DNA from: Rossellomorea marisflavi
GTDB taxonomy: Bacteria > Bacillota > Bacilli > Bacillales > Bacillaceae_B
Length of the DNA: 64,000 nucleotides
Assembly (NCBI RefSeq): GCF_009806575.1
Contig: NZ_CP047095.1
Span: 2,732,001-2,796,000, forward strand
Reading direction: 5' to 3'
The notes beneath the pieces were generated by a model. It worked only from the letters and a program-made list of their open reading frames with translations. It was not told the DNA's origin and did not search any database. This document shows, piece after piece, positions 1,327 through 24,175 of the stretch. The first letter of the stretch is position 1. Each line of letters opens with the position of its first letter. The position numbers and the translations under genes are program-made.

Positions 1327-1371
1327 TTAAAACACTCCTTATTTTTTATTAAAAACAGATAGTTTAAATAA

Positions 1372-1971: not shown

Positions 1972-2031
1972 TTCGTTTCCCCCTCGTTTTTATCGTGATC
2001 GACACGGATTGGAGTTGCGTCTTTTAATGAC

Positions 2032-4337: not shown

Positions 4338-4352
4338 TTAAAATACCTCCTG

Positions 4353-6128
4353 TTATAGCCCTGGCGGCTTATTTACGTAGGACTTTCTGCGATTGGTACC
4401 GAGCATCGATACAACGCCGGAGCATGCGTCTGGAAGATCGTCATGCTGGCCGGATGGGAATTGCTCGAGCTGTTCAAGCAAAAGGCTTTGTCCCTTCTTA
4501 AAACGCAAATAACCCGTCTCACACAACGGTTCAAGCGCCTCAATACGTTTCTCTTTGTTGGCGCCTTGGTGTGCGATGGGTTTTAGTTTCGTTCCATATA
4601 TGCGTTCTTTCATCAGCCTGTCGCGCAACTGACGGTGCATGTCGTGGCCGACTCCGATTGTCTCTACTGCGAAAATCTTATGGCCGTATTCTCGAATCTT
4701 TTCGACCGCCATTTCCAGCGCCTTATGTGCCGGGCACTTTTTCGCCCATGCGTCGACCACGTACATAACGCCTGTTCTGCGATCACGGCCGAGGGTCACT
4801 ATAGCGTTGTAATCCGACCGAGATGACTTACCGGCCGCGACGTCCCAAAATGCGTAATACTCTAAGGGTAGCCTGCGCCCGTCACTGTCGATGAAGTCTG
4901 ACTCGTCAAAGTAACGGAAGGTGTCCGGGTTAAAGATCATCGACTCTTCATCGCGTGGCTCGTTCTGATACTCCGTGTTGAAGGCTTTCGAGCCGTTCGA
5001 CCATTTCCAGGTCATCAGCTTCCAAATCGGCTGCACTTCCGGCCACAAGACGACAGCGCCTTGATCCATTTCCGCCTTGTTAGCTTCGTAGAATTCCCGC
5101 GCCATAGTTTCACGTTGATTCACCGGTACCTGGGCACTCTGATAAATCTCCTGGCACTTGCCCCAAAGGTCCATGCGTTCTGGCAAGTCAATCAACGCTT
5201 TATACTTATGCGATTTGAAATCAGCACGGTTGAGTAAGAGGTCGTTCAGCAAGCTCGCCTCATGTACGACAGTTCCCATCACAATAAACGCCGTCTTTTC
5301 TCCTTTGGCGTCCCCAAGAGGCATAACTGTTTGCGCAAACCAGTCCCTCAGTTTCTCCCGCTGTTCTTTTGTGGCTGCGTTTGTCTTAATATCTTCGAGG
5401 TCATCCCCGATTACCAAATCCGGACGTACGCCATTCCAGTTCCTGCCCCTCAGCGCTTGGCCGGTGGATGCAGCCTGAACCATCGTAAGTGTGCGAGGCA
5501 ACCCGTCTGCCTGTTGCTCAAACGCCACAAACGTTTCCGAATTGTCCTTGGGGTTCATCTGCTGCTTAGGCGATAGTAACGGCCCATAGTCTGCACGCAG
5601 CTTTGCGTTTGTTTTAAGCTGTCCTGATAGCCATTCGAGGTTTGGTCCAGACACCGACGGCGTTTCCGAAATGATAATGATATATTTACGTTTGCGAAAA
5701 ACTGTCTCGCGAAGTGGGGCCGCCTTGCTCAAGTACGAGCTTTTTCCGTGCGACCTGGGCGCTGCCCGCGCGATCTTGGCGTTCTTATTGACGTTAGATA
5801 CCTCGTCGATTGAAGCACATATTTCCTTGTGGAAGGTGGCGGCATCGTCAACGCTGTCGAGCTCAAACGCGTCCCAGTTGCCGGGATTGCCGGGATTGTG
5901 CGTCTCGCTGAAATACTCTAGCGCAAAGTAAAGCAGATCGGTTTCGCTTCGGTGTATGCGTTCGAGGCGTTCAAGCTCCGTGAGTATGTCGTCCAGTTCC
6001 TCGTACTCATCCGACGATAGCATGCCGGCTTCGGCCAGCTTGGCCATTTGCTGCGCTAGTTCACGTGTTGATTCGATTAATACTTCGCGTTCCGGCCGGC
6101 TAAGCCAGCGTGAGTTTACCCATGCGAT
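4353..6128 (-). CDS. Terminase large subunit; start codon uncertain (ATC proposed)
   Basis: ATPase-nuclease that packages phage DNA. Counting from the proposed start, a Walker A-like motif APRSHGKS is at about residues 123-130, Walker B is in LVIGDDLED, and the C-terminal RNase H-like nuclease shows FWDVAAGKSS and HDDLPDA. No in-frame ATG, GTG or TTG lies at a sensible distance from the only good ribosome site, GGGAGG at about 6137-6142. The codon 8 bases after it is ATC at 6128, giving 591 aa. The frame is open up to 6272, but that part overlaps the preceding small gene. The first internal ATG is 27 codons later (about 6047) without a clear ribosome site. An out-of-frame ATG at 6123 would fit if one G there were an error. 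Confidence 0.88.
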   Translation of the reverse strand: MAWVNSRWLSRPEREVLIESTRELAQQMAKLAEAGMLSSDEYEELDDILTELERLERIHRSETDLLYFALEYFSETHNPGNPGNWDAFELDSVDDAATFHKEICASIDEVSNVNKNAKIARAAPRSHGKSSYLSKAAPLRETVFRKRKYIIIISETPSVSGPNLEWLSGQLKTNAKLRADYGPLLSPKQQMNPKDNSETFVAFEQQADGLPRTLTMVQAASTGQALRGRNWNGVRPDLVIGDDLEDIKTNAATKEQREKLRDWFAQTVMPLGDAKGEKTAFIVMGTVVHEASLLNDLLLNRADFKSHKYKALIDLPERMDLWGKCQEIYQSAQVPVNQRETMAREFYEANKAEMDQGAVVLWPEVQPIWKLMTWKWSNGSKAFNTEYQNEPRDEESMIFNPDTFRYFDESDFIDSDGRRLPLEYYAFWDVAAGKSSRSDYNAIVTLGRDRRTGVMYVVDAWAKKCPAHKALEMAVEKIREYGHKIFAVETIGVGHDMHRQLRDRLMKERIYGTKLKPIAHQGANKEKRIEALEPLCETGYLRFKKGQSLLLEQLEQFPSGQHDDLPDACSGVVSMLGTNRRKSYVNKPPGL

Positions 6129-6192
6129 AACGATCGCCTCCCTTCCGTGTGGTTTGTATGTAGCGCCCGAGTGGCCCGTTAGACATTCGGCT

Positions 6193-6354
6193 TCAGGCTT
6201 TACGTAAATGCTCCGTGATAAACTTGCGGTTAATAGCACGGTATAGAACCCAGCGCCGGTATGAGCGTTCACGTTCGGCTGGCAAGGCGTTACGTGCTTC
6301 GTCGTTCAGGCGCTTAACTGTGAGTGAGTATTTCCGTAGGCAATCGCATGTCAA
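6193..6354 (-). CDS. Small basic phage protein (53 aa), TTG start
   Basis: Frame beginning TTG at 6354 with AAGGAG 10 bases upstream and ending TGA at 6193. The product starts MTCDCLRKY, contains a Cys-x-Cys pair and is rich in Arg and Lys (LPAERERSYRRWVLY). It lies directly before the terminase large subunit on the same strand. I do not recognise the family. The ribosome site and sustained coding-like composition argue that it is real. Confidence 0.5.
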   Translation of the reverse strand: MTCDCLRKYSLTVKRLNDEARNALPAERERSYRRWVLYRAINRKFITEHLRKA

Positions 6355-6447
6355 TGGCGGTCAGCTCCTTCGATAAAATTAACGCCCCGAGTGGCCGGCA
6401 TCCTGGCGCTTAGGCATTGCGTCAGGGATTCGTCCTTACAAGCGCAC

Positions 6448-6475
6448 AAAAAAGACACCCCACGAGGGAGGTGCC
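6448..6475 (-). terminator. Rho-independent terminator
   Basis: On the minus strand GGCACC pairs with GGTGTC around a short loop, followed by six T. It lies 17 bases after the stop of the 104-residue gene, so part of the leftward transcript may end here before the terminase gene. Confidence 0.7.
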
Positions 6476-6491
6476 TTATGTATTGCTTTTA

Positions 6492-6806
6492 CTAATTGAC
6501 TTCAACTGTTTCCCATCCACCGATAATTTGACCGTTTTGAACGTTATTTGCCTGTATTGAGAGTTCTTTTGCCCTTTTATCGGGGTGACCTTGGATATAG
6601 GCCATTCCGATTTGCCAAAGCCAACGGTGGGCATTCTCAAATGTTACTCCACTAGAAGGAACTTGCATTGCTGCAATCGTAACCTTCACTACCAAAACCT
6701 TTTCTTGATCTTGAAGGATTAATAATCTAGCACCTTGCCCAGTGGGGCCCTCATCCCATCCTTCATACCCATCCGATTTGAATAACAATCTTTTTTCGAT
6801 TTGCAT
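6492..6806 (-). CDS. Hypothetical phage protein (104 aa)
   Basis: Starts MQIEKRLLFK at 6806, chosen because AAGGAGG stands 8 bases upstream; the frame also allows an earlier ATG at 6848 without a good ribosome site. The soluble product has a hydrophobic beta-like stretch (ARLLILQDQEKVLVVKVTIAA) and a Trp-rich segment AHRWLWQIGM. I do not recognise it. It lies between the resolvase and the terminator at 6448, so it may belong to the resolvase insertion that separates the two terminase genes. Confidence 0.6.
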   Translation of the reverse strand: MQIEKRLLFKSDGYEGWDEGPTGQGARLLILQDQEKVLVVKVTIAAMQVPSSGVTFENAHRWLWQIGMAYIQGHPDKRAKELSIQANNVQNGQIIGGWETVEVN

Positions 6807-6971
6807 GGTTGTAACCTCCTTACAAAGAGGTTTTCGACAAAACAACACAAAATCCTTTAAATGGAAACCCAGAAATTATTTTTATTTCGCGGATTTTTTC
6901 TGCGTCAGATGCCCGGGATATGGAGGCCCGCCCCCTTGGACACCCCTTTTTCGCATGTGGTTTTCGTCGAT

Positions 6972-7547
6972 TTATGTCGACTTATTTTCGGTCATGTTTT
7001 TTCGCTTATTGATTGCACGATAAAGAGTTGCTTTGCTGACTTCCGTCATTTCAACGATCTCAGGAACAGAGTATTGATTGCTATCGTAAAGTTTCAGCGC
7101 TCTTTCCACGTCCTTCTTCGCCTTGGCTGGACGACCACCTACTCTACCTCGGGCGCGTGCTGCCTGCAGGCCTGCCTGTGTGCGCTCGACTATGATATCC
7201 CGTTCAAGCTCTGCTATAGAGGCCATTGTGCGGAAGAAGAAGCGCCCTACTGGCGTTGTAGTGTCGATACCATCAACGATGGATACGAAGTCTACACCGT
7301 CACGTTCAAAGCCTGCGGTCAGTTCCAGTAGCTTAAAGGTGGAGCGCCCCAGCCGGTCGAGCTTATATACCACCAGGACATCGCCGGACCTTAGCGCGTC
7401 CAGGCACTTCTGTAACTCCGGCCGGTCGTCTTTCCTACCGCTCATCTTCTCGGTGTATATACGCTCACACCCTGCCTTCTGTAATGCGTCCACCTGTAAG
7501 TCCAGCGACTGATCCTGCGTACTAACACGAGCATACCCGATTTTCAT
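6972..7547 (-). CDS. Serine recombinase (resolvase/invertase family)
   Basis: 191 residues from ATG at 7547, preceded by GGAGG. The catalytic domain shows IGYARVSTQDQSLDLQ with the nucleophilic serine at residue 9, the arginine-rich LDRLGRS motif near residue 70 and GRFFFRTMASIAELER. A C-terminal HTH (VPEIVEMTEVSKATLYRAI) follows. Small enzymes of this kind resolve dimers or invert DNA between short palindromic sites. It lies between the small and large terminase genes, an unusual place. A palindrome immediately upstream is a likely target. Confidence 0.93.
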   Translation of the reverse strand: MKIGYARVSTQDQSLDLQVDALQKAGCERIYTEKMSGRKDDRPELQKCLDALRSGDVLVVYKLDRLGRSTFKLLELTAGFERDGVDFVSIVDGIDTTTPVGRFFFRTMASIAELERDIIVERTQAGLQAARARGRVGGRPAKAKKDVERALKLYDSNQYSVPEIVEMTEVSKATLYRAINKRKNMTENKST

Positions 7548-7558
7548 CGTAACCGCCT

Positions 7559-7620
7559 CCGTTTCATTCGTTGTGGATATCGTACCATTAACGGTACGTT
7601 TTAGCAACTATGAAATGAAA
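7559..7620. promoter_or_regulatory. Nested inverted repeats before the resolvase: candidate res/crossover site
   Basis: At 7581-7598 stands CGTACCATTAACGGTACG, an 18-bp palindrome with one mismatched pair. It is flanked by GTTG and CAAC, and further out by GTTTCATT (from 7560) and AATGAAAC (to 7620). A third GTTTCATT lies at 7678-7685. Serine resolvases recognise such spaced dyads next to their own gene. The assignment is inferred. Confidence 0.45.
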
Positions 7621-7824
7621 CTATCTTTTGAGACGGGTATACGACGGCAACCTCAACAAACCGCGTCAAATCAACGTTGTTTCATTAATAATCGTTTTTG
7701 GAACGGCTCTTCTTGAAAAAATCGAGGAGGCCACGCGTCAGAAGGGCGCAGTAAGCGTATAGCACCCAATCTACACGTAATCACACACGCTCGGCCACGT
7801 TCCTTCTATAATATTACCGCCACA

Positions 7825-8220
7825 TCAATCGCTTGTGGATTCGCTCCTCTTACGGAACTCTGCTAGCCTCGCCTTGATTGCGTCAATGTCCTTGCTTTCT
7901 TCCGAGTTGTGCGATACCTCCACGCGATCCGTCAGCATGTCATTCGCCTGCAACAACGTCTTGAATAGCGCTGCGTTACCGTCCTTGATGATATGGGCCG
8001 GAATGGCTGCGAATATCTCCGGTAGTCTGTCGGCCGATGCACGCACGATCTCGCGCTTGTACTCACGTTGGAAGAGCTCGTCACGTCGCCAATTGTAGAG
8101 CGTGTTGACATGAACGCCTAGCTCTTCGGCGATTTCTTCATACGTCTTACCTCCGCGCTTAGGCAGAGCAAGCATGGCGATGGCGGCATAGTGGTCGGGT
8201 CCAAGTTGCTTTAATGTCAT
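7825..8220 (-). CDS. Terminase small subunit (phBC6A51-type HTH)
   Basis: 131 residues. The N-terminal half is a helix-turn-helix (KTYEEIAEELGVHVNTLYNWRRDELFQREY), followed by a helical oligomerisation region; this matches the phBC6A51 group of small terminases that recognise the packaging site. The large subunit begins about 1.7 kb downstream, with a resolvase and two small genes between, whereas these two genes are normally adjacent. Confidence 0.8.
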   Translation of the reverse strand: MTLKQLGPDHYAAIAMLALPKRGGKTYEEIAEELGVHVNTLYNWRRDELFQREYKREIVRASADRLPEIFAAIPAHIIKDGNAALFKTLLQANDMLTDRVEVSHNSEESKDIDAIKARLAEFRKRSESTSD

Positions 8221-8244
8221 CGTTTATCCTCCTTAACAATAAAA

Positions 8245-8270
8245 GTAGCGCCCAATTGAGCGCTACGTGT
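8245..8270 (-). terminator. Terminator overlapping the stop codon of the membrane-protein gene
   Basis: GTAGCGC and GCGCTAC form a 7-bp stem with an 8-base loop; TTTTATT follows on the minus strand. The stop codon at 8263-8265 lies inside the stem. It would isolate the accessory membrane gene from the packaging genes. Confidence 0.75.
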
Positions 8271-8871
8271 AAAATGTATATAGTTCAGGTAGTTTAATTT
8301 GTTTACGTAAATTCATAACTTCGTTGGTGACCATGTTATTAATTTCAGCGTACCTTTCATCCGCTTCATCATAATCATCACCTTTCATAGCCCATTTCAA
8401 CTCAATGAAGGCCACATAAAAAACAGAATCCCCATATACTGAGTTCCTGTTTATTAGATTGACATAGTCATCTTGTTGAGACTTTTTGAGCGTATTGAAA
8501 CTATGTGCCCCATATTGGAAAATATATTCAGCGTGCAGCACATCCAAAGGATGGTAAAGATTTAATAAGCGCTCTTTGGAAGTTGAAACTAGTAGCTCTT
8601 CTTCCCTAATTCTTCTTTGTTCATTAATGGATTTATTAATTTCATTTTCTGAAGAATCTATTGTCATTTTAACACCAAAATATGTTATTGCTCCGGATAT
8701 CAGCCCTCCACTAATTGATCCCCAAAAAGTTCCTAATGTACTTATCCATGTTTTTTCGTCACCTGAAACTGGTAAAACCCTAAAGAACATTAGTAGATTG
8801 ATTAACACAGGCAATGCTATTGCTATTAACAAAGAGTTCTTAACTATTCTTGCTAAAGATTTATTTTGCAT
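8263..8871 (-). CDS. AT-rich accessory membrane protein (moron), unknown function
   Basis: 202 residues. Two N-terminal membrane segments (about 12-32 and 47-68) are followed by a charged coiled coil (SSENEINKSINEQRRIREEE) and a soluble C-terminal region rich in Tyr, Asp and Glu. Base composition is clearly more AT-rich than the flanking terminase and replication genes, and the gene has its own terminator, the hallmarks of a moron. Such two-membrane-segment proteins can act in superinfection exclusion or abortive infection, but nothing here proves that. Confidence 0.65.
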   Translation of the reverse strand: MQNKSLARIVKNSLLIAIALPVLINLLMFFRVLPVSGDEKTWISTLGTFWGSISGGLISGAITYFGVKMTIDSSENEINKSINEQRRIREEELLVSTSKERLLNLYHPLDVLHAEYIFQYGAHSFNTLKKSQQDDYVNLINRNSVYGDSVFYVAFIELKWAMKGDDYDEADERYAEINNMVTNEVMNLRKQIKLPELYTFYT

Positions 8872-8968
8872 AATGCAGCTCCTTTCCGAAATATAATTCG
8901 ACAGAAAGGAACATTATCCTGCTTTAGACACCTCTAATAACATATAAATTTTCGCATATAATTTATTT

Positions 8969-9122
8969 AATATCCCCTGCGAATAAGTGAGCAGGAATGT
9001 TTTGTTTATTTTTATTGCGTTTGTTCTTGTTACGTTTGTTCTTATTACCGTCACTCTCCGGTGATTTACCTAAGTCACTGTAAAGTGATTAACCTAATTC
9101 ACTCTCCGGTGATTGACGTCCT
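8969..9122. other. Predicted phage replication origin: iterons, T-rich repeats and hairpin
   Basis: Three 24-bp tandem units start at 9051, 9075 and 9099; the core of each is TCAC-N6-GTGATT. Beside them are three 15-bp T-rich units at 9003, 9018 and 9033, two of which match in 13 of 15 bases. Next to these is a 30-bp hairpin element at 8969-8998 (CCTGC-N10-GCAGG with conserved flanks). The iterons overlap the 3' end of the initiator-like gene, as in lambda O. A second copy of this plan lies at 20995-21132. Confidence 0.65.
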
Positions 9123-9562
9123 TTATCACCGTACAACCTGTCGAGATTGCTTCGGATCTGCTCATCGGTAAGACTCGAGAAATACATCGGAAAGTATAAC
9201 TTGTCTCGCTTGTTTGACGTGTAGTCATACACTGTTTTTATCAGCCCGATCGCTTCAAGTACGCTGGACAGTTTCGCTATTCTGTTGCGGCCAATTCCGG
9301 TATCAGCAGCGATACGTTCAACCGATGTGAATGCGCTCATATAACGGTCATTATCTCGCCTTCCGTTGACGTTCGACAGTAGATACGTATACAACGGAAC
9401 AATATCCACGTTACTTTTTTGATATTCCCTAGCGATGGGGACAAGACGTCGGTATAGATCGTGAGGAACCGGCGCATATCCAGAGAGCCCACTATCCTCC
9501 TTAAGACTGAATGCCTTCCTATTAACGACTTCTTGCGAAAACTCCTTGAACTTTCCGCTCAT
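9089..9562 (-). CDS. Phage replication initiator-like winged-helix protein, tail possibly truncated
   Basis: 157 residues. A central winged helix (FTSVERIAADTGIGRNRIAKL) follows the segment VPLYTYLLSNVNGRR seen in replisome organiser N-domains. After the stop TAA at 9089 the same frame stays open to 8963 and would encode SLYSDLGKSPESDG, a Lys/Asn repeat and IPAHLFAGDIK. The stop sits in the middle of three repeated SPESxLGK-like units, at the place where the adjoining units have AAA or CAA, so a single base change (AAA to TAA) would explain it. The DNA encoding these units is the iteron array. It likely recruits the host helicase at that origin. Confidence 0.7.
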   Translation of the reverse strand: MSGKFKEFSQEVVNRKAFSLKEDSGLSGYAPVPHDLYRRLVPIAREYQKSNVDIVPLYTYLLSNVNGRRDNDRYMSAFTSVERIAADTGIGRNRIAKLSSVLEAIGLIKTVYDYTSNKRDKLYFPMYFSSLTDEQIRSNLDRLYGDKGRQSPESELG

Positions 9563-9611
9563 TCTACATCATCCTCTTCGATTATTTTGTAGTGCTTCGA
9601 TTAATTTCGTT

Positions 9612-9800
9612 TTATCTGACGCTGCTTTGTTGCGGCGAATATTTATCAAGTCCGGTTTGTAGAGCCGGAGTCTTTTCGTATAGGTTGAACGTTTTGCCTG
9701 TGTTGGGATTTATCGCCTCAGTAATCGGAACAAGTCCGCATTTATCGATTAAAAACCGATTGACTCGACGACTATAAATGAACGCCAATTTATCTTTCAT
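9612..9800 (-). CDS. Small phage protein (62 aa), DUF5659-like
   Basis: MKDKLAFIYSRRVNRFLIDK opening, then a short Asn/Pro turn and NLYEKTPALQTGLDKY. The layout, a hydrophobic helix with 'R-x-x-x-x-L' followed by 'N-x-x-T-x-K-x-F', resembles the small DUF5659 family often found beside phage replication genes. AAAGGA lies upstream. It is in the replication block on the same strand as its neighbours. Family from memory of the pattern only. Confidence 0.5.
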   Translation of the reverse strand: MKDKLAFIYSRRVNRFLIDKCGLVPITEAINPNTGKTFNLYEKTPALQTGLDKYSPQQSSVR

Positions 9801-9907
9801 TTCGCATCAATTCCTTTTCGATTAATTTTCGAGGGGACGGCGCTCGGGCTAACGTTTATGCCTGCGTCTCGTATTCCTCCCCTCATTACGTATTAGGAGG
9901 GATGTTA

Positions 9908-10819
9908 TTAATTTTTGAGTGCGTGCCACAAGTTCAGCGAATCAACCCCGCCATCAGCTTCGATCTCCTCAACCGTCAGCCTTGGGTTACGGAAGCACCA
10001 GTCGTAGAAATCGCGATACTCGTCCACAGTCAGGCCGCATTGATCCGCAAGGAACGTAATTAGGCGATTGAACCTAGTCTTGTCGATGTCTGAACGACCC
10101 TTCGCCCACTCGAACAGGTTCGTCGCACTCTTCGAATTATTAAGCGTTCCTTCTAACGGATAGCAGTTCCACTCGACTGTTCCTCCGTGGCCGATTGCGA
10201 TAGGGATTGCGTGTTCCAGGTGAATGTTCTCCGTCGCCCCTGTCAGCGCACAAGCATGGTCGAAGTGGTCGAGCGCCAGTTCCCACGCTTCCGGACTTAG
10301 GTCGCCGGGCAAGGCCGCCTCTTTCGCACGCCTATTATGGCCGTAGGTTTTGTAGCGTTCGGGGTCCTTCGCCATAGCTACCTTCATGAGCTGGCCGTGG
10401 CATTTCTTGCATGAAGTCGATAATTTGTCCTGCGATCCACTCATAATGTAGTAGTCATCGGCGTCTTTCCATTCGTCACACGTCGGGCATTTCTTTCGCA
10501 CACACACTCCGTCTGCATAAAGACGCTCGGCCTTCGCCTTGATCGGACGCTTCTTGTTGCCGTACACGTCCTCTCCCCTGCGATTTGCTTCAAGGCGTAA
10601 CTTTTCGCAAGTCTTGCAGTAGGAGCGCTTCTTGGCGAAACCCTTGCTACACTTCGCGAACTTTTCCACTGGCAGCATTTCGCCACAAAGACCGCCACAC
10701 CTTTTACCGACAACCTCTCCGTCTCTGCTTACCACGTGTTCAACCTTGCGTGTCTGAGGAACAAGTGTTAAAGCCTCGCCTTGCACCGTAAACCATTCAC
10801 CTTGCTTTTCGATTAACAT
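9908..10819 (-). CDS. Zinc-ribbon HNH endonuclease-like protein
   Basis: 303 residues from ATG at 10819, chosen because AGGAGG stands just upstream; the frame continues upstream through a terminator hairpin, so a longer form is unlikely. Two Cys-x-x-Cys zinc-binding regions (CGGLCGEML with CKTCE; CPTCDEW with CKKCH) occupy about residues 45-150. The C-terminal half has an HNH-like core: CALTGATENIHLEHAIPIA, then GGTVEWNCYPLEGTLNNSK. Such phage nucleases may assist packaging, replication or DNA mobility. It is placed among replication genes, far from the terminase. Confidence 0.75.
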   Translation of the reverse strand: MLIEKQGEWFTVQGEALTLVPQTRKVEHVVSRDGEVVGKRCGGLCGEMLPVEKFAKCSKGFAKKRSYCKTCEKLRLEANRRGEDVYGNKKRPIKAKAERLYADGVCVRKKCPTCDEWKDADDYYIMSGSQDKLSTSCKKCHGQLMKVAMAKDPERYKTYGHNRRAKEAALPGDLSPEAWELALDHFDHACALTGATENIHLEHAIPIAIGHGGTVEWNCYPLEGTLNNSKSATNLFEWAKGRSDIDKTRFNRLITFLADQCGLTVDEYRDFYDWCFRNPRLTVEEIEADGGVDSLNLWHALKN

Positions 10820-10870
10820 ATTAGTCGCCTCCTGAAATTTGGAAAGTCCGGTTGAAGTTTTCGGCCAACA

Positions 10871-10904
10871 AAAAAAGGCCCACCGGTATGCCCGGCAGGC
10901 CTTG
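10871..10904 (-). terminator. Terminator upstream of the HNH gene
   Basis: Minus strand stem AGGCCTGCCGG / CCGGTGGGCCT with two GU pairs and a short loop, then seven T. It ends the transcript of the sigma-like gene and the tiny frame behind it. Confidence 0.8.
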
Positions 10905-10960
10905 AGAAATCGCTGTTCATAAAAATATTGGGAAGATTGCGTCATGTACAGATAAAAAAA

Positions 10961-11026
10961 CTACGGACTATGTGTCTGAGGTAAGAGTCTTTTTGTTGTG
11001 CGTCGATGCTTCGTAACTTGTCTCAT
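10961..11026 (-). CDS. Possible 21-residue basic peptide
   Basis: ATG at 11026 overlaps the stop of the 409-residue gene (TAATG), and AAGGAGGAG stands 5-8 bases upstream, an excellent coupled start. The product MRQVTKHRRTTKRLLPQTHSP is highly basic. It ends before the terminator at 10871. It is too short to classify and could be chance, but the initiation signal is stronger than for many true genes here. Confidence 0.35.
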   Translation of the reverse strand: MRQVTKHRRTTKRLLPQTHSP

Positions 11027-12255
11027 TAGCTCTCCTCCTTATTTATTGCGTTTCTCATCCCGTATGTGTCCAGTTTGACGATCTTATAGGAACTCGCCTT
11101 TACCGGCTGAATTGTGCGTAGATACTCTCCGTCAAGGCTGAATACGTGGCACGGCTGAGGACCTGCGAAATCTTTGTATCTTTCTTTTCTCTTCGCATTC
11201 GTTTCCTTCGCCTCTTCGTCCGGCATGATTGGCGCGCTTGGCTCGTACGCTTCTAGCTCCGCCTTCATTCGTTCAACGTGCATTTCAATAGCTTCGCAGA
11301 TGTCGTACAAGACTCGTGCATCGAGTTCATTCGCCTCCCCTTTAAGGTAGGACACGTACGCCTGAGTCGCCTTCCCATCGCCGGCCAATGCTTCGTAGCC
11401 TATTTCCACCGCATCCTCATCGCCAGCTATCCACACCGAAAGGGTAGCGTTCTGGCCGGGAAGATCATCGTCTGCCTCTGCCAGCGCTAGAAATTCCCGA
11501 TACTTTGCGATTTCGCCCAACAGATAATTTTCACGGCGAGAAATGCCGTCTTTCTTCCATGCAGCCATTGTTTTCTGATAGATACGGTTTTTCATATTTG
11601 ATAGGTTAGTACGTGACATCCCGACTAGTTCCTCGAAGTCGCATTCTTCTATATAGTCGCTATCTTTGGCGGAATCAACGGACATACTGTCGATGAAACG
11701 GTTTTGCCTCTTCGTTAAGAAGTCGTGGCGGTTGTCGCGAAACCAAGCCAGAAAGGGGTTGGCAACATAGTCGGCCTGGCAGGCGAACAAGGATTCCGTC
11801 ACGCTGTCGCCTACCGTTGCAACTTTGCCGCCTTCTTCGTCATAAACCGGAGCGTCGAGTGATTGGAAGTCAATGTTTACGAAAACACTGCCGCCCGTTT
11901 CGGGATCGTACATCCTCTTCGTATTCGGGTTAATGATTGGCGGTAGCTCGTGTTCGAGTTTGGTCACGACCGTTTTGATCAGGCGGTTGAGGTTCAGCTT
12001 ATCGCTGCCGTCAGCCATCGCGTCCCAACTTGCGCCCTCAACCAAGTTGAAACCGTTGATCGTCTCCCAGGCGAATGTCGCTGCTGTGTTGACGAGTTCG
12101 TATTCCGAGAAAGTGTTCGCCTTGCCCATCGCGTTAATGATGCCGTACACGGCCTTCTTGATCTTCGGATGCTTCGGCTTCAGCGAGAACTCCGTGCTGC
12201 CGTAGTTGGTTTCGAACAATACTTCCTGCAATAGTTTCGTTTGTGCCTCGTTCAT
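11026..12255 (-). CDS. Sigma-factor-like phage regulatory protein (409 aa)
   Basis: Residues about 50-75 (ELVNTAATFAWETINGF) resemble sigma region 2 helices. Residues about 180-235 contain LTKRQNRFIDSMSVDS, then FEELVGMSRTNLSNMKNRIYQK, a region-4-like helix-turn-helix in which 'LTKRQ' stands where sigma-70 proteins have 'L-T-x-R-E/Q'. The C-terminal third is helical and acidic with a short Lys-rich stretch. It lies before the replication, packaging and head genes, where a middle or late transcription switch would sit. This is a remote resemblance; a DNA-binding or replication role is also possible. Confidence 0.5.
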   Translation of the reverse strand: MNEAQTKLLQEVLFETNYGSTEFSLKPKHPKIKKAVYGIINAMGKANTFSEYELVNTAATFAWETINGFNLVEGASWDAMADGSDKLNLNRLIKTVVTKLEHELPPIINPNTKRMYDPETGGSVFVNIDFQSLDAPVYDEEGGKVATVGDSVTESLFACQADYVANPFLAWFRDNRHDFLTKRQNRFIDSMSVDSAKDSDYIEECDFEELVGMSRTNLSNMKNRIYQKTMAAWKKDGISRRENYLLGEIAKYREFLALAEADDDLPGQNATLSVWIAGDEDAVEIGYEALAGDGKATQAYVSYLKGEANELDARVLYDICEAIEMHVERMKAELEAYEPSAPIMPDEEAKETNAKRKERYKDFAGPQPCHVFSLDGEYLRTIQPVKASSYKIVKLDTYGMRNAINKEES

Positions 12256-12372
12256 GTGATTCGCCCCTTTTAATGATTTTTGGATTTAACGGTTGCATTC
12301 CGTTGAATTTTTTCGTAAAATACTAATAAAGGGATATCTCTGTACTTTTTTAGGTACAAACGCAGAAAAAAA

Positions 12373-12579
12373 TTAAGCGATCAGAAGTTTGATAACCGCC
12401 AACTTTTCCGGTGTAACGTTGAGTTCGCGCAAAAGTTTACGCTCCATGTGCTCCGTGATGGTCCGTTCACCTTGCTCCATCTTTGCAATCAGCGACTGGC
12501 TGACGCCCAGCTTTAACGCCAGATTATGCTGATTGAAACCCTCGAGTTTACGGATTGTCGCAAACAACTTTCCGCTCAT
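12373..12579 (-). CDS. XRE-family HTH protein (68 aa)
   Basis: A complete five-helix Cro/CI domain: FNQHNLALKLGVSQSLIAKMEQGERTI with the recognition helix at SQSLIAKME, ending in KLAVIKLLI. It shares its layout and the C-terminal IKLLI with the HTH protein at 12727-12945, so the two are diverged paralogues. GGGAGGG lies before the ATG. It probably regulates the phage's early operon. Confidence 0.8.
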   Translation of the reverse strand: MSGKLFATIRKLEGFNQHNLALKLGVSQSLIAKMEQGERTITEHMERKLLRELNVTPEKLAVIKLLIA

Positions 12580-12639
12580 CAGATCGCCCTCCCTTTCCGT
12601 GTGGGATTCCTCCCCTTCTACTATATATTAGGGTCGTAA

Positions 12640-12717
12640 TTAGTCATAAACCTCCCACAATCCACGAATCCATCTGTCATGTATGTCCGCGTTTTCGAAT
12701 GATACTAGCCTCCACAT
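12640..12717 (-). CDS. Possible 25-residue peptide between the two HTH genes
   Basis: Starts ATG at 12717, nine bases after the stop of the upstream HTH gene with GGGAAAGG between, and ends TAA at 12640. The product MWRLVSFENADIHDRW... is aromatic-rich. The stretch of 147 bases between the HTH genes otherwise holds only an eight-codon frame. Weak evidence; listed because spacing and ribosome site fit a coupled small gene. Confidence 0.3.
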   Translation of the reverse strand: MWRLVSFENADIHDRWIRGLWEVYD

Positions 12718-12726
12718 TACCTTTCC

Positions 12727-12945
12727 CTAGTTATTAATTTCGCTGATTAACAGTTTGATTGATAACAACTTCTCATCCGTTAAATTAAATGCCTCCATTA
12801 CCCTTAATTTCACTCGATCTGTTAGCCGGCGATCACCTCCTTCAATGAGAGATATTAACGAGTGACTTACTTGAATCTTTTTCGCAAACTCCCTTGCATT
12901 TAGCCCGTTGGAGGTGCGTATAAAACGCATCACTTGTTTGTCCAT
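12727..12945 (-). CDS. XRE-family HTH protein (72 aa)
   Basis: Cro/CI-type domain with LNAREFAKKIQVSHSLISLIEGGDRRL as helices 2-3 and a C-terminal LLSIKLLISEINN. It is a paralogue of the protein at 12373-12579. GAGGAG precedes the ATG. A phage regulator of unknown operator; the main repressor is more likely the protein at 16553. Confidence 0.8.
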   Translation of the reverse strand: MDKQVMRFIRTSNGLNAREFAKKIQVSHSLISLIEGGDRRLTDRVKLRVMEAFNLTDEKLLSIKLLISEINN

Positions 12946-12960
12946 GCCCTTCTCCTCCTC

Positions 12961-13509
12961 TTACTGCGATGTAAGCAATTCTGTAACATACTTTCCAACG
13001 GAGTTGCCCATTCGGTATTCACTAACCCCTAGGGATTGCATCGTTTGCTCCATTAGCTTTATATCTTCCTCGAAGCTTCCGATGTCTATTGTCATTAACT
13101 TATGGTTACCATCCGTTACATAAATACCTTTATATGTCTCAGGCTTGAACTCTTGGTATACCACTTCTATAGTGGGTCTCCAACCTTCTTTAACCACAGC
13201 TTTTTCAAGTGGAACCAAATACTGACCGCGTAGATCGCAAGCAACCACTAAAACTTGTTGACGTGTGGTTTTGGTGACAACTTTGGAGTCTTTAAGGTAA
13301 TGAATTCTTTCCATCACTACATTTCTAATGCCTACTACAACGCCCGATCGAGGCTTGACTAAATTCGCTACGAAAAACTTCCGGCTAGTTTCAGGGGTCC
13401 CAGTTTCAAGTATACGCTTTTCTGCTTGATCTACGGATTCTGGTGTAACCTCAACTTGCATTAGTTTCGCTATTACTAAAACTTCTTGTCCCAATTTAAT
13501 ATTTTTCAT
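12961..13509 (-). CDS. Hypothetical phage protein (182 aa)
   Basis: Soluble, beta-rich protein with MKNIKLGQEVLVIAKLMQVE at the start and alternating hydrophobic strands (RSGVVVGIRNVVME; QQVLVVACDLRGQYLVP). A good GGGAGAGG ribosome site is present. It ends 15 bases before the HTH gene and so is cotranscribed with it. I do not recognise a family. Confidence 0.65.
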   Translation of the reverse strand: MKNIKLGQEVLVIAKLMQVEVTPESVDQAEKRILETGTPETSRKFFVANLVKPRSGVVVGIRNVVMERIHYLKDSKVVTKTTRQQVLVVACDLRGQYLVPLEKAVVKEGWRPTIEVVYQEFKPETYKGIYVTDGNHKLMTIDIGSFEEDIKLMEQTMQSLGVSEYRMGNSVGKYVTELLTSQ

Positions 13510-13819
13510 TTCAACCTCTCCCTTTGTGTAAAATAATTTACAATCCTTCTAGCATTTCGTTTTCCCTACTAATAAGAGATACAAGCAAAACACCAGTTTG
13601 TCACGATCCTGCCTAAGAAAATTTAAACCTCCTATTCTAAAATACGAATGGAAATACCCTACTGTCGCAATCAAACCAAAATTTCATCCCCTTACTTTAA
13701 AATAGTCTCCCACCACCCTCTTCGCACAAGTTTTCTGTTCTTAAAGGATAATATGTCGTCAAAATCGGTTTCGCACAAAAAAAGCCCGCCACATTCAACG
13801 ATGCGACAGGCCGTCTTTA
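13510..13819. other. Intergenic region after the XerC-like gene
   Basis: About 310 bases without a supported gene. It contains a terminator (13777-13812), two related T-rich tracts (TATTTTAGAATAGG and TATTTTAAAGTAAGG on the minus strand near 13640 and 13700) and two TTCGCACA motifs (13729, 13771) of the kind also repeated at 20831-20879. A promoter for the 182-residue gene should lie here, but I see no clear -35/-10 pair. Confidence 0.4.
13777..13812 (-). terminator. Terminator of the XerC-like recombinase gene
   Basis: Minus strand GCCTGTCGC pairs with GTGGCGGGC (two GU pairs), followed by TTTTTTT. Confidence 0.8.
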
Positions 13820-14740
13820 TTAAAAATCCAAATGATTGAGCGGATTATACTTCTCGTTCGATTCCCGCAGATCATGCCCCCACATGTTGATATACCTTTG
13901 CGTCATCTGCAACGATTCATGTCGCAGTATGCGTTGAACTGTAATAGAGTCCATTCCGCCTTTTACAACGTAAGAAGCAAAGGTGTGGCGAAGAGTATGG
14001 GGAGAAAGACGTACGTCCTCCCAGCCAAACCGCTTCTTCAGGCGTTTGAAGATAGTGCCGATGGCTTCCGGTCGCAGCTTCCGGCCCTTCGACGAGCAAA
14101 AAACGTGATCACCCACTTCCCCATCAAAATACTCCTCGCAAAACTGGCGGAATTGCACCATTTCGGCGCACATCTTCGATGCGAGTGGAACGTCATTTTC
14201 TCTTCGCTTCTTTCCAAACACCGTAATCATGCCACTGTCCAGGTCGATATCCCTCCAACGCAAATTAACGAGTTCACCACGGCGAATTCCGGTTGAGAGT
14301 AGCATAAGAACAATCGTCCTATTCCGGTAGGCATGATACGGCTTGTTCCGCGATTCTTTCTCGAAATACCGGAGAATTTGACGCAGATGATCCTCGGTAA
14401 ATATCTCAACCCGCGTGTCGACCTTTCCGTACGAGACGTTTCTGAACGGCTTCTTCGATTCGTCATATAAATCCTCGTTGATTAGATAGTTCACGAACGC
14501 CTTCACAATCCGCAGCTTTAGGTTTATCGTGTTCGGCGAGTTACCGAACTCGTTGCGGCAATACAGCAGGAACCCCTTGATGGCCGGCCGGTCGATGTCG
14601 GTGACTTCAAGTATCTCCGCAGCCTGGCAATAGTGCGTGAAATTGCGAAGCACCCTGCGGTAGGTCGTGCGTGTGTAAGGCGACAGGTTCTTAAGCTCGC
14701 ATTCTTCCAGGAAATCTTTTACGGCAAGTTTAACGTTCAT
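13820..14740 (-). CDS. Tyrosine recombinase, XerC/D-like, in the early lytic operon
   Basis: 306 residues with all catalytic residues: Arg in STGIRRGELVNLRW, Lys in VFGKKRREND, His-x-x-Arg in LSPHTLRHTFAS, then LRHESLQMTQRYINM with the tyrosine nucleophile. The second-site His is in RHESL rather than the usual LGH. The N-terminal SAM-like core-binding domain is complete. It ends NPLNHLDF, close to the PLNNLGL ending of the integrase at 22276, so the two are related. Its place inside the leftward lytic operon suggests dimer resolution or excision rather than lysogenic integration. Confidence 0.92.
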   Translation of the reverse strand: MNVKLAVKDFLEECELKNLSPYTRTTYRRVLRNFTHYCQAAEILEVTDIDRPAIKGFLLYCRNEFGNSPNTINLKLRIVKAFVNYLINEDLYDESKKPFRNVSYGKVDTRVEIFTEDHLRQILRYFEKESRNKPYHAYRNRTIVLMLLSTGIRRGELVNLRWRDIDLDSGMITVFGKKRRENDVPLASKMCAEMVQFRQFCEEYFDGEVGDHVFCSSKGRKLRPEAIGTIFKRLKKRFGWEDVRLSPHTLRHTFASYVVKGGMDSITVQRILRHESLQMTQRYINMWGHDLRESNEKYNPLNHLDF

Positions 14741-18199: not shown

Positions 18200-19216
18200 T
18201 TGCGAAAAGGCCACATTAAAGAACTGAACGGGCGATTTCAAATAACGCTTGATCTTGGAACTGATCCGGCCACAAAGAAACGAAAGAGGCACTACTCAAC
18301 GCATTCAAGCCGTCAGGAGGCCAAAGATGCGCTTGCTTATTTACTTGACCCTTCCGGCCAGCAAACGGTCAATGACTTCTTAGACGAATGGCTTAGCCTT
18401 ACTACGAACAACCTTAGCTCAAACACTGTTTACGTATATGGCCGATACCTTAAAATGCTCAAGGATTACTTTCCGCTAATTGACTACCGGAAGATACGGC
18501 GGAAGCAAGCCGAGAAAATTATCAGCGAACTTCTGCGAAAGTATAAACCTGGCACTGTAGCGGTGATGAGGCGTTTACTTTCAACGGCTTATAATCGAGC
18601 CATTGCGTGGGAAGAAACGGACTTTAACCCGTTCAAAGGCATTCGGATTAAGGCGGAGCATGTTGAGCGTGAAGTTTGGACGCCGGGGCAGGTAGCTGCG
18701 TTTCTATCTGCAGCCAAAGAACGACAAGGCAATCCGAGTTATTATGTTGCGTACATGATTGCTTTGTATACCGGAAGTATCGCGGTCAAGGAAGAAATCC
18801 ATAATGACTACGATAAAGGCGGAAAGTTTGTAAGTGGAACTAAAACGAGGGCTAGTCGCAGGAACATCGCCATGCCTGGAGAACTTATTGCCGTGCTGAA
18901 TACGCACAGGGAACGTTTGGGCGAGGAGGCTGAGTATGTAATAGTGACGAATAAACTGACGCCAATCAATCAGCGGAATTTAACGAAGGCGATGTATGAA
19001 ATCATTCGCAATGTTGGCCATCCTCCAATCCGGTTCCACGATTTCCGCCATACTCACGCATCCATACTGCTTGCTAATGGTGTTAACGTGAAGGTAATTC
19101 AAGAGCGCCTTGGACATTCGAGGATCAGTACGACGTTGGACACTTATTCGCATGTGTTTCCTTCGCAGCAACGAGAGGCGGCCGATTTGTTAAATAGCAT
19201 AATTCCTTCCAAATAG
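18200..19216 (+). CDS. Phage integrase (tyrosine recombinase) with the first catalytic Arg box deleted
   Basis: 338 residues from TTG at 18200 (GAGGTGAG upstream). An AP2-like arm-binding N-terminus, SAM-like core domain and catalytic domain are recognisable. Lys215 in GTKTRASRR, His280/Arg283 in HDFRHTHAS, His306 in RLGHS and Tyr316 in TLDTYSHV are present. After IALYTG (residue 192) the expected segment with 'M-R-R-G-E' and 'W-x-D-I-D' is missing and the frame resumes at SIAVKEEIHNDYDKGGKF, about 20 residues shorter than the family. Without that Arg it should be inactive as a recombinase. It may still bind DNA. Confidence 0.88.
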   Translation: MRKGHIKELNGRFQITLDLGTDPATKKRKRHYSTHSSRQEAKDALAYLLDPSGQQTVNDFLDEWLSLTTNNLSSNTVYVYGRYLKMLKDYFPLIDYRKIRRKQAEKIISELLRKYKPGTVAVMRRLLSTAYNRAIAWEETDFNPFKGIRIKAEHVEREVWTPGQVAAFLSAAKERQGNPSYYVAYMIALYTGSIAVKEEIHNDYDKGGKFVSGTKTRASRRNIAMPGELIAVLNTHRERLGEEAEYVIVTNKLTPINQRNLTKAMYEIIRNVGHPPIRFHDFRHTHASILLANGVNVKVIQERLGHSRISTTLDTYSHVFPSQQREAADLLNSIIPSK

Positions 19217-20830: not shown

Positions 20831-20879
20831 ACGACTTTATTCGCACAAAACAGGGCAAAAGTACGACTTTATTCGCACA
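20831..20879. repeat. Two 17-bp direct repeats, period 32
   Basis: ACGACTTTATTCGCACA occurs at 20831-20847 and again at 20863-20879 without change. The 32-bp period is three helical turns, suggesting two protein-binding sites. They lie between the lipoprotein gene and the second origin-like module. Confidence 0.7.
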
Positions 20880-20994: not shown

Positions 20995-21132
20995 TTCCTA
21001 CCAGCGGGAATTAATCAATTCCTACAGACGGTAATTGATCGTTTCCTATGAGCGGGAATATAAAAAGAACGAATTAACAATAACGAATTAATAACAATAA
21101 AGATTCCTGCTCATAAATTCGCAGGGGATATT
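20995..21132. other. Second origin-like module (iterons, A-rich repeats, hairpin)
   Basis: Three 24-bp units start at 20995, 21019 and 21043; each begins TTCCTA and carries CGGKAAT near its middle. A-rich direct repeats follow (AACGAATTAACAAT at 21068 and a longer variant at 21082). Then comes a hairpin element at 21103-21132 identical in 27 of 30 bases to that at 8969-8998; the three differing bases lie together in the loop. No initiator gene overlaps it; the nearest candidate is the winged-helix protein at 21389. Orientation is opposite to the first module. Confidence 0.6.
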
Positions 21133-21253: not shown

Positions 21254-21418
21254 ATGATCGACCCAAATGAAATCATGACCGGCCCATTCACGCTAAGGAA
21301 TGCGAAAAAACATCTACTCCCCGACGAAGCAATCGTCACAAACGACGACGAAACTTATTACATCGTCCGCCTCGGCGATATCGCCAAGTTAGAACGCATG
21401 GGTTTCCGCAAAGTATAG
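21254..21418 (+). CDS. Small protein (54 aa), convergent with the HTH gene
   Basis: MIDPNEIMTGPFTLRNAKKH start with AAGGAGG seven bases before it and a TATACT -10-like box upstream. The product continues with an acidic middle and TYYIVRLGDIAKLERMGFRK. Even amino-acid use and a strong ribosome site support a real gene. Its last 30 bases overlap the end of the convergent gene at 21389. Unknown function; a regulator of the adjacent origin-like module is possible. Confidence 0.6.
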   Translation: MIDPNEIMTGPFTLRNAKKHLLPDEAIVTNDDETYYIVRLGDIAKLERMGFRKV

Positions 21419-22141
21419 GCGGTCGTATAGCTTGTCTATGACGCCTGTATAGAAGCCGCATACATTCCGAATACGTTTACGCTTAGTTGCCTGGAACGTC
21501 ACCTTTAGCGCCTCTATAGCTGCGTTAAGAAGGTCTGAAGGGTCGAAAGCGGTCTTTAGGTAACTACTTTGCGCCAAATAGATGCCGTAGAGCCTGTTCG
21601 TGAGCTTACGATCAGCTACGAAGTTTTCAGCCATACGCTTAAATTGACGATATGGACTGGCGGCCACATCTGCGTCAGCATACGTCTTATCGTTAGATAA
21701 CTCTTTAGCGCTTGAAGAAGTACAGGCTTCCGCTTCCTTTTTCGCAGGCTCAGACGGTGTTGTAACGGGCTCCTCGGCCTCTTGGCGACTGGACACTTGC
21801 GATTGGTCAGTGATGGGCATAGGCGGCTGTATGACGTACAGATTGGCGCCATAGCCTCCGGAAACTTTTCGGAGTGTTTTCACCTTAGCAATGACGCCTA
21901 AGCCTTGTAGCTTACTCAGGGCGCGTCTAACGGTCTTTTCACTCTTTCCGATTGCCTCGGCGATGGTGGCCGCCTTTAGATGTGCGACTCCTACATACTT
22001 AACGGCATAGCGACCGAGCATCTTTAAGACGTTGTGATCCGTCTCATTCATGGCGAAATAGTGGTCGCAGGTATGACGATATAGAGCCTCGTTCAAGGCC
22101 GCGACTGATTGGAACGATTGATGTTGCGATAGGTAACGCAT
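21389..22141 (-). CDS. Winged-helix replication/regulatory protein
   Basis: 250 residues from ATG at 22141, chosen for GGAGGAG nine bases upstream over an earlier start. N-terminus MRYLSQHQSFQSVAALNEAL and the winged helix HLKAATIAEAIGKSEKTVRRALSKLQGLGVI are typical of HTH proteins carried by Bacillus phages and plasmids. A low-complexity linker (about 120-165) leads to a helical C-terminal domain, as in primosomal DnaD/initiator proteins. It lies beside the second origin-like module, so it may be that module's initiator. Confidence 0.7.
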   Translation of the reverse strand: MRYLSQHQSFQSVAALNEALYRHTCDHYFAMNETDHNVLKMLGRYAVKYVGVAHLKAATIAEAIGKSEKTVRRALSKLQGLGVIAKVKTLRKVSGGYGANLYVIQPPMPITDQSQVSSRQEAEEPVTTPSEPAKKEAEACTSSSAKELSNDKTYADADVAASPYRQFKRMAENFVADRKLTNRLYGIYLAQSSYLKTAFDPSDLLNAAIEALKVTFQATKRKRIRNVCGFYTGVIDKLYDRLYFAETHAF

Positions 22142-22275: not shown

Positions 22276-23250
22276 TTAGAGTCCTAAGTTATTTAACGGT
22301 GAGTGCTGCTGATATTTCTTCGCTACTTCCCCATCGGTAAAATCCAAATATGCCTTTTGCGTCACTTCAACGCTTGAATGGCCCAATATCCTCGACAATG
22401 TCACGAAGTCCCCTCCGTTAAGCAAATAGTACTTTGCGAAGTTATTCCTCAACTGGTGAGCGTGAATATCAACTTTGACTTGTTTACCGATCTTTTTCAA
22501 CATCCGCTCAAAATTACTGATGTCGAGCATCGTGCCTCTGATCGTCGGAAACAAATAAGGACTATCGCTAAATCTGTCGCGATATGAAAACCACCGCTTT
22601 AAGTCGTGCGTAAGCTTGTACGAAAAGAATACGTACCGCTGTCGGTTGTTCTTTGGATTTTCGATTAAGATGGCGCGCGCTTTAAAATCAACGTTCTCCG
22701 GTCGTAAAGAAACGCATTCTCCCGACCTCATCCCCGTATCCAACATTAGGCGGATCATGATCCAAGACCTAAAGCCGTGAAAGGTGCTTGTTTCGCATGC
22801 GTCTAAAATTCGCTTTATCTCCTCCCTTGTCATTAACGCCTTCTGCTTCCGCATGGGCTTTATGTTTTTAACCTTTTCCGCAGGATTCTCCTTAATTTCA
22901 CGCTCGCTGTGTAAAAAGTTAAAAAACACCTTTATGTTCCGGACATAGTTCGCAATGGTACTGTCGCTAATCGGCTTGTTTAAATCCGGCCTATTATCCG
23001 GAAAGTTCTTCATTTTGGACGAGTCCCTAGCGACGACCGTGTACTTCCCGCGCTCACGAAGATATTTTATGTATGCCCGTATGTGTGCCGTCTTTACTTC
23101 GCTCACTTCTGTTACGTTGAACTGCTCATCCATATACCTTGCGAATAAATTTAACGTTTGCTCGTAGCTTGCTTTCGTTTTCCTAGCGAGTGCCTTACTA
23201 TCGCAATACACCATAAAATTTTCGACCTGCAATAGAAAATCCGAGTACAC
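22276..23250 (-). CDS. Tyrosine integrase next to the attachment border
   Basis: 324 residues with a complete active site: Arg in LDTGMRSGECVSLR, Lys in ENPKNNRQRYV, His-x-x-Arg in HAHQLRNNFAKY, His in LGHSSVEVT and Tyr in QKAYLDF. An N-terminal SAM-like core-binding domain is present, longer than in XerC. Its C-terminal PLNNLGL recalls the recombinase at 13820. Only 148 bases of repeat-rich DNA separate it from spo0A, so it is the best candidate for the enzyme that placed this element here. Confidence 0.93.
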   Translation of the reverse strand: MYSDFLLQVENFMVYCDSKALARKTKASYEQTLNLFARYMDEQFNVTEVSEVKTAHIRAYIKYLRERGKYTVVARDSSKMKNFPDNRPDLNKPISDSTIANYVRNIKVFFNFLHSEREIKENPAEKVKNIKPMRKQKALMTREEIKRILDACETSTFHGFRSWIMIRLMLDTGMRSGECVSLRPENVDFKARAILIENPKNNRQRYVFFSYKLTHDLKRWFSYRDRFSDSPYLFPTIRGTMLDISNFERMLKKIGKQVKVDIHAHQLRNNFAKYYLLNGGDFVTLSRILGHSSVEVTQKAYLDFTDGEVAKKYQQHSPLNNLGL

Positions 23251-23398: not shown

Positions 23399-24175
23399 TC
23401 AGCTAGCCTTATGCTCCAAACGCAGCTTGTCAGCCACCATCGCAATGAACTCAGAATTGGTCGGTTTTGCTTTTGTCATGCTTACAGTATAGCCGAAGAG
23501 GGAGGAGATGGAATCGATATTCCCACGGCTCCAGGCTACTTCGATGGCATGACGGATCTCACGCTCGACCCTCGAAGCGGTGGTGTTGTATTTCTTTGCG
23601 ATATCAGGATAAAGGACTTTGGTGATGGAACCAAGGAGTTCGATATCATTGTAGACCATGGAGATCGCTTCCCTTAAGTACATATATCCTTTAATATGTG
23701 CCGGCACGCCGATTTCATGAATGATGCTCGTGATGCTTGCATCGAGATTTCTCGGTTTATGATCAGAATTCATTCGGGAGGAAGGCTTCTTGATGATCGG
23801 GTTCGTTTTTCCGCTTACCTGTCGGATATGGCTCACCAGGTTTTCCATATCGAACGGCTTCAGGATGAAATAGGATGCACCGAGATCCACCGCTTTTTTC
23901 GTCACGTCTTCCTGACCGAAAGCTGTCAGCATGATGACATTCGGAATGTTCTTCCTCTCCCTCAGGCGCTCGAGAACGGCAAGGCCATCCAGGTGGGGCA
24001 TGATGATATCCAAGACGAGTACGTCCGTTTCGACTTCCTCCAAGAGATCCAGGCAGTCCTGTCCATTATGGGCAATCCCTACAACTTCCAAGTCATTTTG
24101 TGAGGCAATATAATCTTCCAACAATGAGGTGAGTTCCCGGTTATCATCCACTATACAAACTTTAATCGATTTCAC
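23399..24175 (-). CDS. spo0A: Master sporulation response regulator Spo0A
   Basis: 258 residues from GTG at 24175, with AGGAGG upstream; the frame extends to an ATG at 24208 that lacks a ribosome site. Receiver domain: acidic pair in CIVDDNREL, phospho-acceptor Asp in [12 protein letters not shown], Lys in FILKPFD. The C-terminal DNA-binding domain ends [20 protein letters not shown] and EHKAS, like B. subtilis. The protein is intact although the prophage begins directly after its stop. Activated by phosphorelay, it switches cells to sporulation. Confidence 0.97.

Follow-up and report, generated by a model that had tools for sequence, protein, structure and literature searches.

Two iteron modules with a common hairpin in a Rossellomorea marisflavi prophage are candidate members of a family of phage replication origins

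The 64-kb stretch of the Rossellomorea marisflavi genome analyzed here (the window) contains two compact modules, each composed of three repeats, an A-rich region and a hairpin, and the question that they raise is what such a pair is for, given that the two hairpins are alike and the repeats are not. Module 1 has three iterons of the form TCAC-N6-GTGA spaced 24 bp apart (9051..9117, minus strand), an A-rich region with 15-bp direct repeats (8996..9050, minus strand), and a hairpin (8976..8995) whose proposed structured strand, the plus strand, reads CCTGC-GA-A[TAAG]T-GA-GCAGG. Module 2 has three iterons (20995..21059, plus strand) starting at 20995, 21019 and 21043, exactly 24 bp apart, an A-rich region that is presumed to be an unwinding element (21060..21105, plus strand; 14-bp direct repeats at 21063 and 21077), and a hairpin (21106..21125) that reads CCTGC-GA-A[TTTA]T-GA-GCAGG on the minus strand. 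Each 24-bp unit holds a palindrome, which in module 2 is TTCC...GGAA with a degenerate middle unit. The two hairpins lie 12.1 kb apart in inverted orientation and agree at 27 of 30 bases, the three mismatches being adjacent and all within the loop. In these respects the modules are as the first-pass annotation described them; its 30-bp hairpin holds as a match over 30 bases, but the structure itself is a stem-loop of 20 nt with a 5-bp stem, flanked by conserved sequence. The gap between array and stem is 46 bp in module 2, 55 bp in module 1, and 60–68 bp in five relatives.

It is unlikely that both modules arose by chance. The hairpin pattern CCTGCTCANNNATTCGCAGG, allowing for up to three mismatches, has two matches in the window, a number reached in none of 100 shuffles (mean 0.10), and a scan for 24-bp triples (at least 40 of 54 matches) reveals exactly two arrays, those of the two modules, while 30 shuffles of the window give zero. 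In the whole genome, exact copies of CCTGCTCANNNATTCGCAGG are present at modules 1 and 2 only, with two further places at one and two mismatches. BlastN comparison of module 2 against phages and plasmids gave no match, no known RNA family reached its gathering score between positions 6000 and 24000, and there is no tRNA within the window. The hexamer TTCGCA was considered and dropped (61 seen, 52 expected under a Markov model). Upstream of module 2 there is also an exact 17-bp direct repeat, ACGACTTTATTCGCACA, at 20831-20847 and 20863-20879, 32 bp apart.

Both modules are part of a single prophage of about 38.9 kb located at the 3′ end of spo0A. A tyrosine integrase gene (22276..23250, minus strand) adjoins spo0A, and attR (23406..23491) corresponds to 86 bp of the spo0A 3′ end, with an exact copy at the left end of the prophage, outside the window. 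The att repeat has no third copy, indicating one prophage rather than a tandem pair, and a separate satellite around module 2 was rejected on this ground. The prophage has a typical set of structural genes, covering the major and minor head proteins, scaffold, portal, terminases, tail and endolysin. No helicase, primase or polymerase was identified among the prophage ORFs tested, part of the small ORFs included, and the candidates for replication functions are two HTH proteins of 157 aa (9089-9562) and 250 aa (21389-22141). Three tyrosine recombinase genes are present in the one prophage (13820-14740, 18200-19216 and the integrase gene at 22276-23250), and a DNA-invertase-like recombinase gene (6972-7607) lies between the terminase small and large subunit genes. 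An element of about 12.9 kb occupies the same spo0A site in another genome of the genus (G305; L077, about 805-13806), flanked by a duplicated spo0A end; its integrase is related, and it encodes an HTH protein of distant similarity (22% identity). This element has neither the hairpin loop of the window nor a 24-bp triple; it carries one hairpin of other sequence (L077 7187) with the tandem-GA steps described below.

The first-pass annotation held that no listed gene explains the modules. This is not so for module 1, the array of which overlaps the 3′ end of the gene encoding the 157-aa protein (9089..9562, minus strand), an arrangement also seen in relatives; the module 2 array is not placed in this way. 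We regard the 157-aa protein, a predicted winged-helix protein, as the candidate initiator for module 1, from weak PHROG matches to replication-initiation and DnaD-like proteins (best E 1.5e-4), an AlphaFold model (mean pLDDT 85.9), and 15 relatives in viral contigs. Pfam yields HTH_36 alone (up to 0.01), and nine PDB sequence matches include no initiator. In structure comparisons the Z scores of 7.8 to 4pql and 7.7 to 4pt7 are tied with those of unrelated winged helices, and no single initiator family stands out; these two entries we take to be RepA_N proteins. Eighteen of 377 genomes of the order, this one included, match a four-sequence alignment of the 157-aa protein (E ≤0.001), and tblastn of five members of the initiator family against 50,697 phage records returned nothing at E limits from 1e-5 to 1e-2.

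There are two types among the closer relatives. Type A has TCAC-N6-GTGA iterons and initiators 57–76% identical to the 157-aa protein, and type B has TTCC...GGAA iterons and initiators 33–39% identical to it. The recognition region is GRNRI or GRNRV in type A and HKDRIKGL in type B (HGDRIKGL in L126), and initiator type and iteron type go together across the relatives, which makes the specificity directly testable. In both types the gene ends in or beside the palindromic 24-bp repeats, and an A-rich tract follows. The result is a sequence-defined candidate origin family with an uncharacterized short winged-helix initiator. The terminase small subunit gene (terS) comes next in the window (7825..8220, minus strand, with one gene between it and module 1), in plasmid p1 by annotation, and in two type-B loci by reading only.

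The 24-bp spacing, which the first-pass annotation expected to be kept in relatives, is retained in part. When larger stretches were scanned, all 16 type-A and type-B relatives had one 24-bp array and none had a second, where several records are partial, G085 and G267 were taken as 20- and 40-kb stretches, and G404 is counted by its exact sites only. The same scan found no triple at threshold in the distant relatives G073, G080 and G283, and the repeats of p1 are spaced at 25 bp. Two of the relatives have replication-type genes of their own: G395 encodes a DNA polymerase as well as a DnaB-like helicase, and in G394 there is a phrog_2190 'replication initiation' protein together with an FtsK-like protein. 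Either phage may therefore have origins besides its module. Lone extra type-A palindromes are found in G400, G401, G402 and G406 (L173, L180, L188 and L193), 175–200 bp from the nearest exact array unit, and p1 has one before terS (L229, about 15080) although its own repeats differ.

Judged by these comparisons, module 1 is of type A and sits beside its type-A gene, its array block being identical to four type-A origins at 52–59 of 66 positions and to type B at 31–32. Module 2 looks like an orphan type-B origin. Its array block is identical to three type-B origins at 53, 53 and 54 of 67 bases and to type A at 30–33, its A-rich region aligns with those of type B, and a type-B initiator query against this genome (E up to 1) matches gene 9089-9562 alone and finds no type-B initiator. 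Type-B origins are known from Niallia, Bacillus and viral contigs, where each adjoins a short winged-helix gene of its own, and the type-B pattern is present in only one of 36 genomes of the genus, which is this one. The hairpin of module 2 is that of module 1, and it is absent from all four other type-B origins examined. The evidence fits the proposal of a pair of origin modules that differ in their iterons and share a hairpin, and module 2 may be a second replicon or an origin that depends on a factor supplied from elsewhere. That the hairpin of module 1 is kept with an array of the other type could reflect either selection for a factor supplied by phage or host, or local recombination.

A palindromic repeat array beside an A+T-rich tract has the sequence anatomy of an iteron-type origin of lambda-like plan, and we infer that the modules are origins. 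We propose, as the probable reading, that both represent one family of iteron replication origins in Bacillales prophages. By analogy with lambda and SPP1, the palindromic iterons would be bound by initiator dimers, which would open up the A-rich repeats; the short hairpin, with its stem, tandem G-A steps and compact loop, would then fold on one of the strands exposed and mark a loading or priming site for host or phage machinery. Module 1 would start theta replication, and module 2, with an array that would have come from a type-B phage, is probably a second, late or helper-dependent origin, or a fork barrier, or a relic.

Elements of this scheme have counterparts in known systems. In the lambdoid origin (PMC7466680, PMC5043065), which lies inside the initiator gene, initiator dimers act on palindromic iterons that adjoin some 40 bp of A+T-rich sequence. 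The likeness lies in palindromic iterons beside an A+T-rich tract at the gene of the initiator candidate, dimer binding being the lambdoid feature. However, the lambdoid origin has four iterons (six in Stx phages) and P is also used in replication, whereas here the iterons number three and are spaced at 24 bp, the protein is a short winged-helix one, the array is at the 3′ end of the gene, and a hairpin is present. The theta origin of pAMbeta1 has a primosome assembly site, ssiA, downstream of the origin (PMC5703833), and resembles the modules in layout as a case of a single-strand initiation element downstream of an origin in Gram-positive hosts; with this precedent, the hairpin may help in loading or priming.

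Alternatively, the modules could be control regions and not origins, the winged-helix protein binding the iterons in order to regulate transcription of the genes downstream, namely terS and the late operon at module 1 and a 54-aa ORF read from the sequence downstream of module 2 (21254..21418, plus strand). In the loci read, each module is indeed upstream of a gene that reads away from the hairpin, the fold of the 157-aa protein resembles many regulators, and a position near terS would suit late-operon control. We nonetheless think this rather unlikely. First, the region around module 2 has 2 promoter-like sites, about as many as shuffles give (mean 1.7), and lacks a terminator-like site. Second, the strand with the tandem-GA/GNNA structure does not correspond to the transcript of those genes. 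Third, an A-rich direct-repeat tract of 45–55 bp next to iterons is origin anatomy.

The closest known layout is that of the Bacillus subtilis phage SPP1 (initiator G38P), with origins oriL and oriR 12–13 kb apart (PMC6316719, PMC3485210), a system overlooked in the earlier statement that no described element has such a pair. SPP1 likewise has two separated origins with direct repeats and an AT-rich unwinding region, one inside the initiator gene and the other intergenic, and by sequence anatomy the present genome too has a second candidate origin without an identified initiator gene. The two systems differ in that one initiator binds both SPP1 origins, whereas here module 1 has type-A and module 2 type-B repeats, that is, not repeats for the same initiator as far as their sequence goes, and no initiator was found for the second; furthermore, the passages on SPP1 that were consulted mention no conserved hairpin. 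A literature search for a tandem-GA or hairpin origin element, or for an orphan phage origin, gave nothing on point among the matches listed. Module 2 could accordingly be an oriR-like second site for the prophage's own initiator, either a late origin or a fork barrier that triggers a theta-to-sigma switch. The 12.1-kb spacing is close to that between the SPP1 origin in the initiator gene and its orphan intergenic origin, and array, A-rich tract and hairpin are all present, but the difference in iteron type (53–54 versus 30–33 of 67), set against a single SPP1 protein for both sites, and the presence of a second array in 0 of 16 type-A and type-B relatives make this unlikely.

Three further explanations apply to module 2. 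The 250-aa HTH protein (21389..22141, minus strand) is a possible partner that the comparisons do not support. It is encoded only 0.26 kb from module 2, matches phrog_1835 with weaker replication-initiation O-like matches, and has homologues in the type-B prophages G085 and G408 as well. However, none of 18 other homologous loci has the hairpin (within 500 bp downstream or to the record end; L150 was read in the wrong frame), the best repeat triple in these loci scores 29 as against 31 of 42 in the window, and the gene adjoining type-B origins is a different short initiator; we consider it quite improbable that this protein is the module 2 initiator. A co-infecting type-B phage might instead supply an initiator that fires module 2 in trans, or is titrated by it, such that the prophage replicates with its competitor or interferes with it. 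The combination of type-B iterons and A-rich tract with no type-B initiator found in the genome points this way, as does the existence of type-B origins in Niallia, Bacillus and viral contigs, and an origin addressed to another phage's initiator would, if true, give a concrete example of how an origin can be borrowed or used for interference. No other type-B array was found in the 36 genomes of the genus, though, and the literature search listed no such arrangement, so this too is unlikely, to much the same degree as the SPP1-like site. Finally, module 2 could be a non-functional relic of recombination with a type-B phage, which we take as a possibility of some substance, if still on the unlikely side. 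Phage mosaicism, the lack of an initiator found for it, the degenerate middle iteron, and its presence in one genome of 36 all favor a relic, but the array spacing, the A-rich tract and the perfect stem with both GA steps are intact.

The hairpin stems of the relatives differ, yet on the same strand, which is the complement of the initiator's sense strand, many share the order stem-GA-inner pair(s)-loop-inner pair(s)-GA-stem. Occurrences were counted in a hand-picked, non-redundant set of 27 regions (10 type A, 5 type B and 12 distant ones taken in without an iteron check; both modules are included, and the near-duplicates L115, L116, L118, L120-L123 and L125 and the weak distant rows L132 and L142-L144 are left out). 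There are several pertinent features. First, 14 of 27 regions, several of them rows in which the motif was first noticed, have a tandem-GA hairpin with at least four Watson-Crick pairs on the strand predicted, compared to a mean of 1.0 and a maximum of 5 in 60 shuffles; at five pairs the number is 10 of 27 (shuffles 0.38). Second, replacing GA by AG gives 1 and 0 regions at four and five pairs, TC (the same structure on the other strand) gives 1 and 1, and seven other mismatch pairs give 0 or 1 of 27. Third, three of the four regions first met after the motif had been defined carry it (L199, L209 and p1); in L209 the opposite strand bears such a hairpin as well, L212 lacks the GA steps and has a GATA loop, and L199, L209 and L212 belong to the 27. 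Fourth, the motif is found in 8 of 10 type-A regions, 1 of 5 type-B regions (module 2 itself) and 5 of 12 distant ones, the 13 regions without it including the four remaining type-B origins. In DNA, tandem G-A pairs of the sheared kind are stable. Standard DNA folding does not score G-A steps as pairs and therefore yields the 5-bp stem only, at −4.1 and −3.8 kcal/mol, with similar values for the strands.

The loops show a similar strand preference. GNA or GNNA loops occur in 15 of 27 regions and in 5 on the other strand (shuffles mean 2.9, maximum 8); 13 of the 15 lie 111–156 bases into the region, compared to 2 of 5 on the other strand, and two (m1 and L124) are away from the hairpin's place. 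Some relatives read GC[GTA]GC or GC[GTTA]GC on the structured strand and in this resemble GNA/GNNA DNA mini-hairpins such as d(GCGAAGC) (PMC4686876). The two hairpins of the window differ from these, having TAAG and TTTA loops instead of a GNA/GNNA loop with at least two closing G-C pairs, and only their tandem-GA steps fit the wider pattern.

The plasmid p1 provides a related example. It is recorded as a circular Bacillus paralicheniformis plasmid and is full of phage genes, and its repeats and hairpin lie between an initiator-like gene and terS. The hairpin, tat-GA-gc[GTA]gc-GA-ata, is downstream of the 25-bp repeats and is the sole tandem-GA hairpin of at least five pairs that this strand has within 4 kb; the other strand has one at a different place. 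Across 48 stretches (879,514 bases with overlaps), tandem-GA hairpins whose outer stem has 5 bp or more are found at 9 origins and at 10 other places, and the motif alone is thus not diagnostic. The one-strand architecture suggests a single-stranded-DNA element, and as such it offers a testable cis-element for the loading of replication machinery in Bacillales phages. A bolder extension, and a distinctly doubtful one, is that this is an undescribed strand-specific single-stranded-DNA hairpin that loads helicase or primase whatever the stem sequence, and that module 2 is a second origin addressed to the initiator of a rival phage, whose infection would amplify or protect the resident.

The sequence of the hairpin is far more restricted than its architecture, and is common to modules 1 and 2 and G073. 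In a scan of the order, 19 of 299 genomes, this one included, match it at up to three mismatches, and of the rest only G073 looks real; in the class, 12 of 333 genomes match, again including this one, and the others read as chance from their flanks. The sequence was also tried as a general marker and abandoned, with none found in one pattern scan of genome contigs and four matches in two scans of viral contigs, none of these beside iterons by reading. For the suggestion that the hairpin always accompanies 24-bp iterons the outcome is mixed: its one convincing occurrence outside this genome, in G073, has an initiator-like gene and an A-rich region next to it and lacks a 24-bp triple. The stem of the G073 hairpin differs on both sides (CCGGC/GCCGG) and its loop is that of module 2. 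The locus is within an integrated element (L078, 7902-15869) that has an integrase, the initiator-like gene and a hairpin of the same class and, further on, ORFs that by reading appear FtsK-like and TrbC/VirB2-like.
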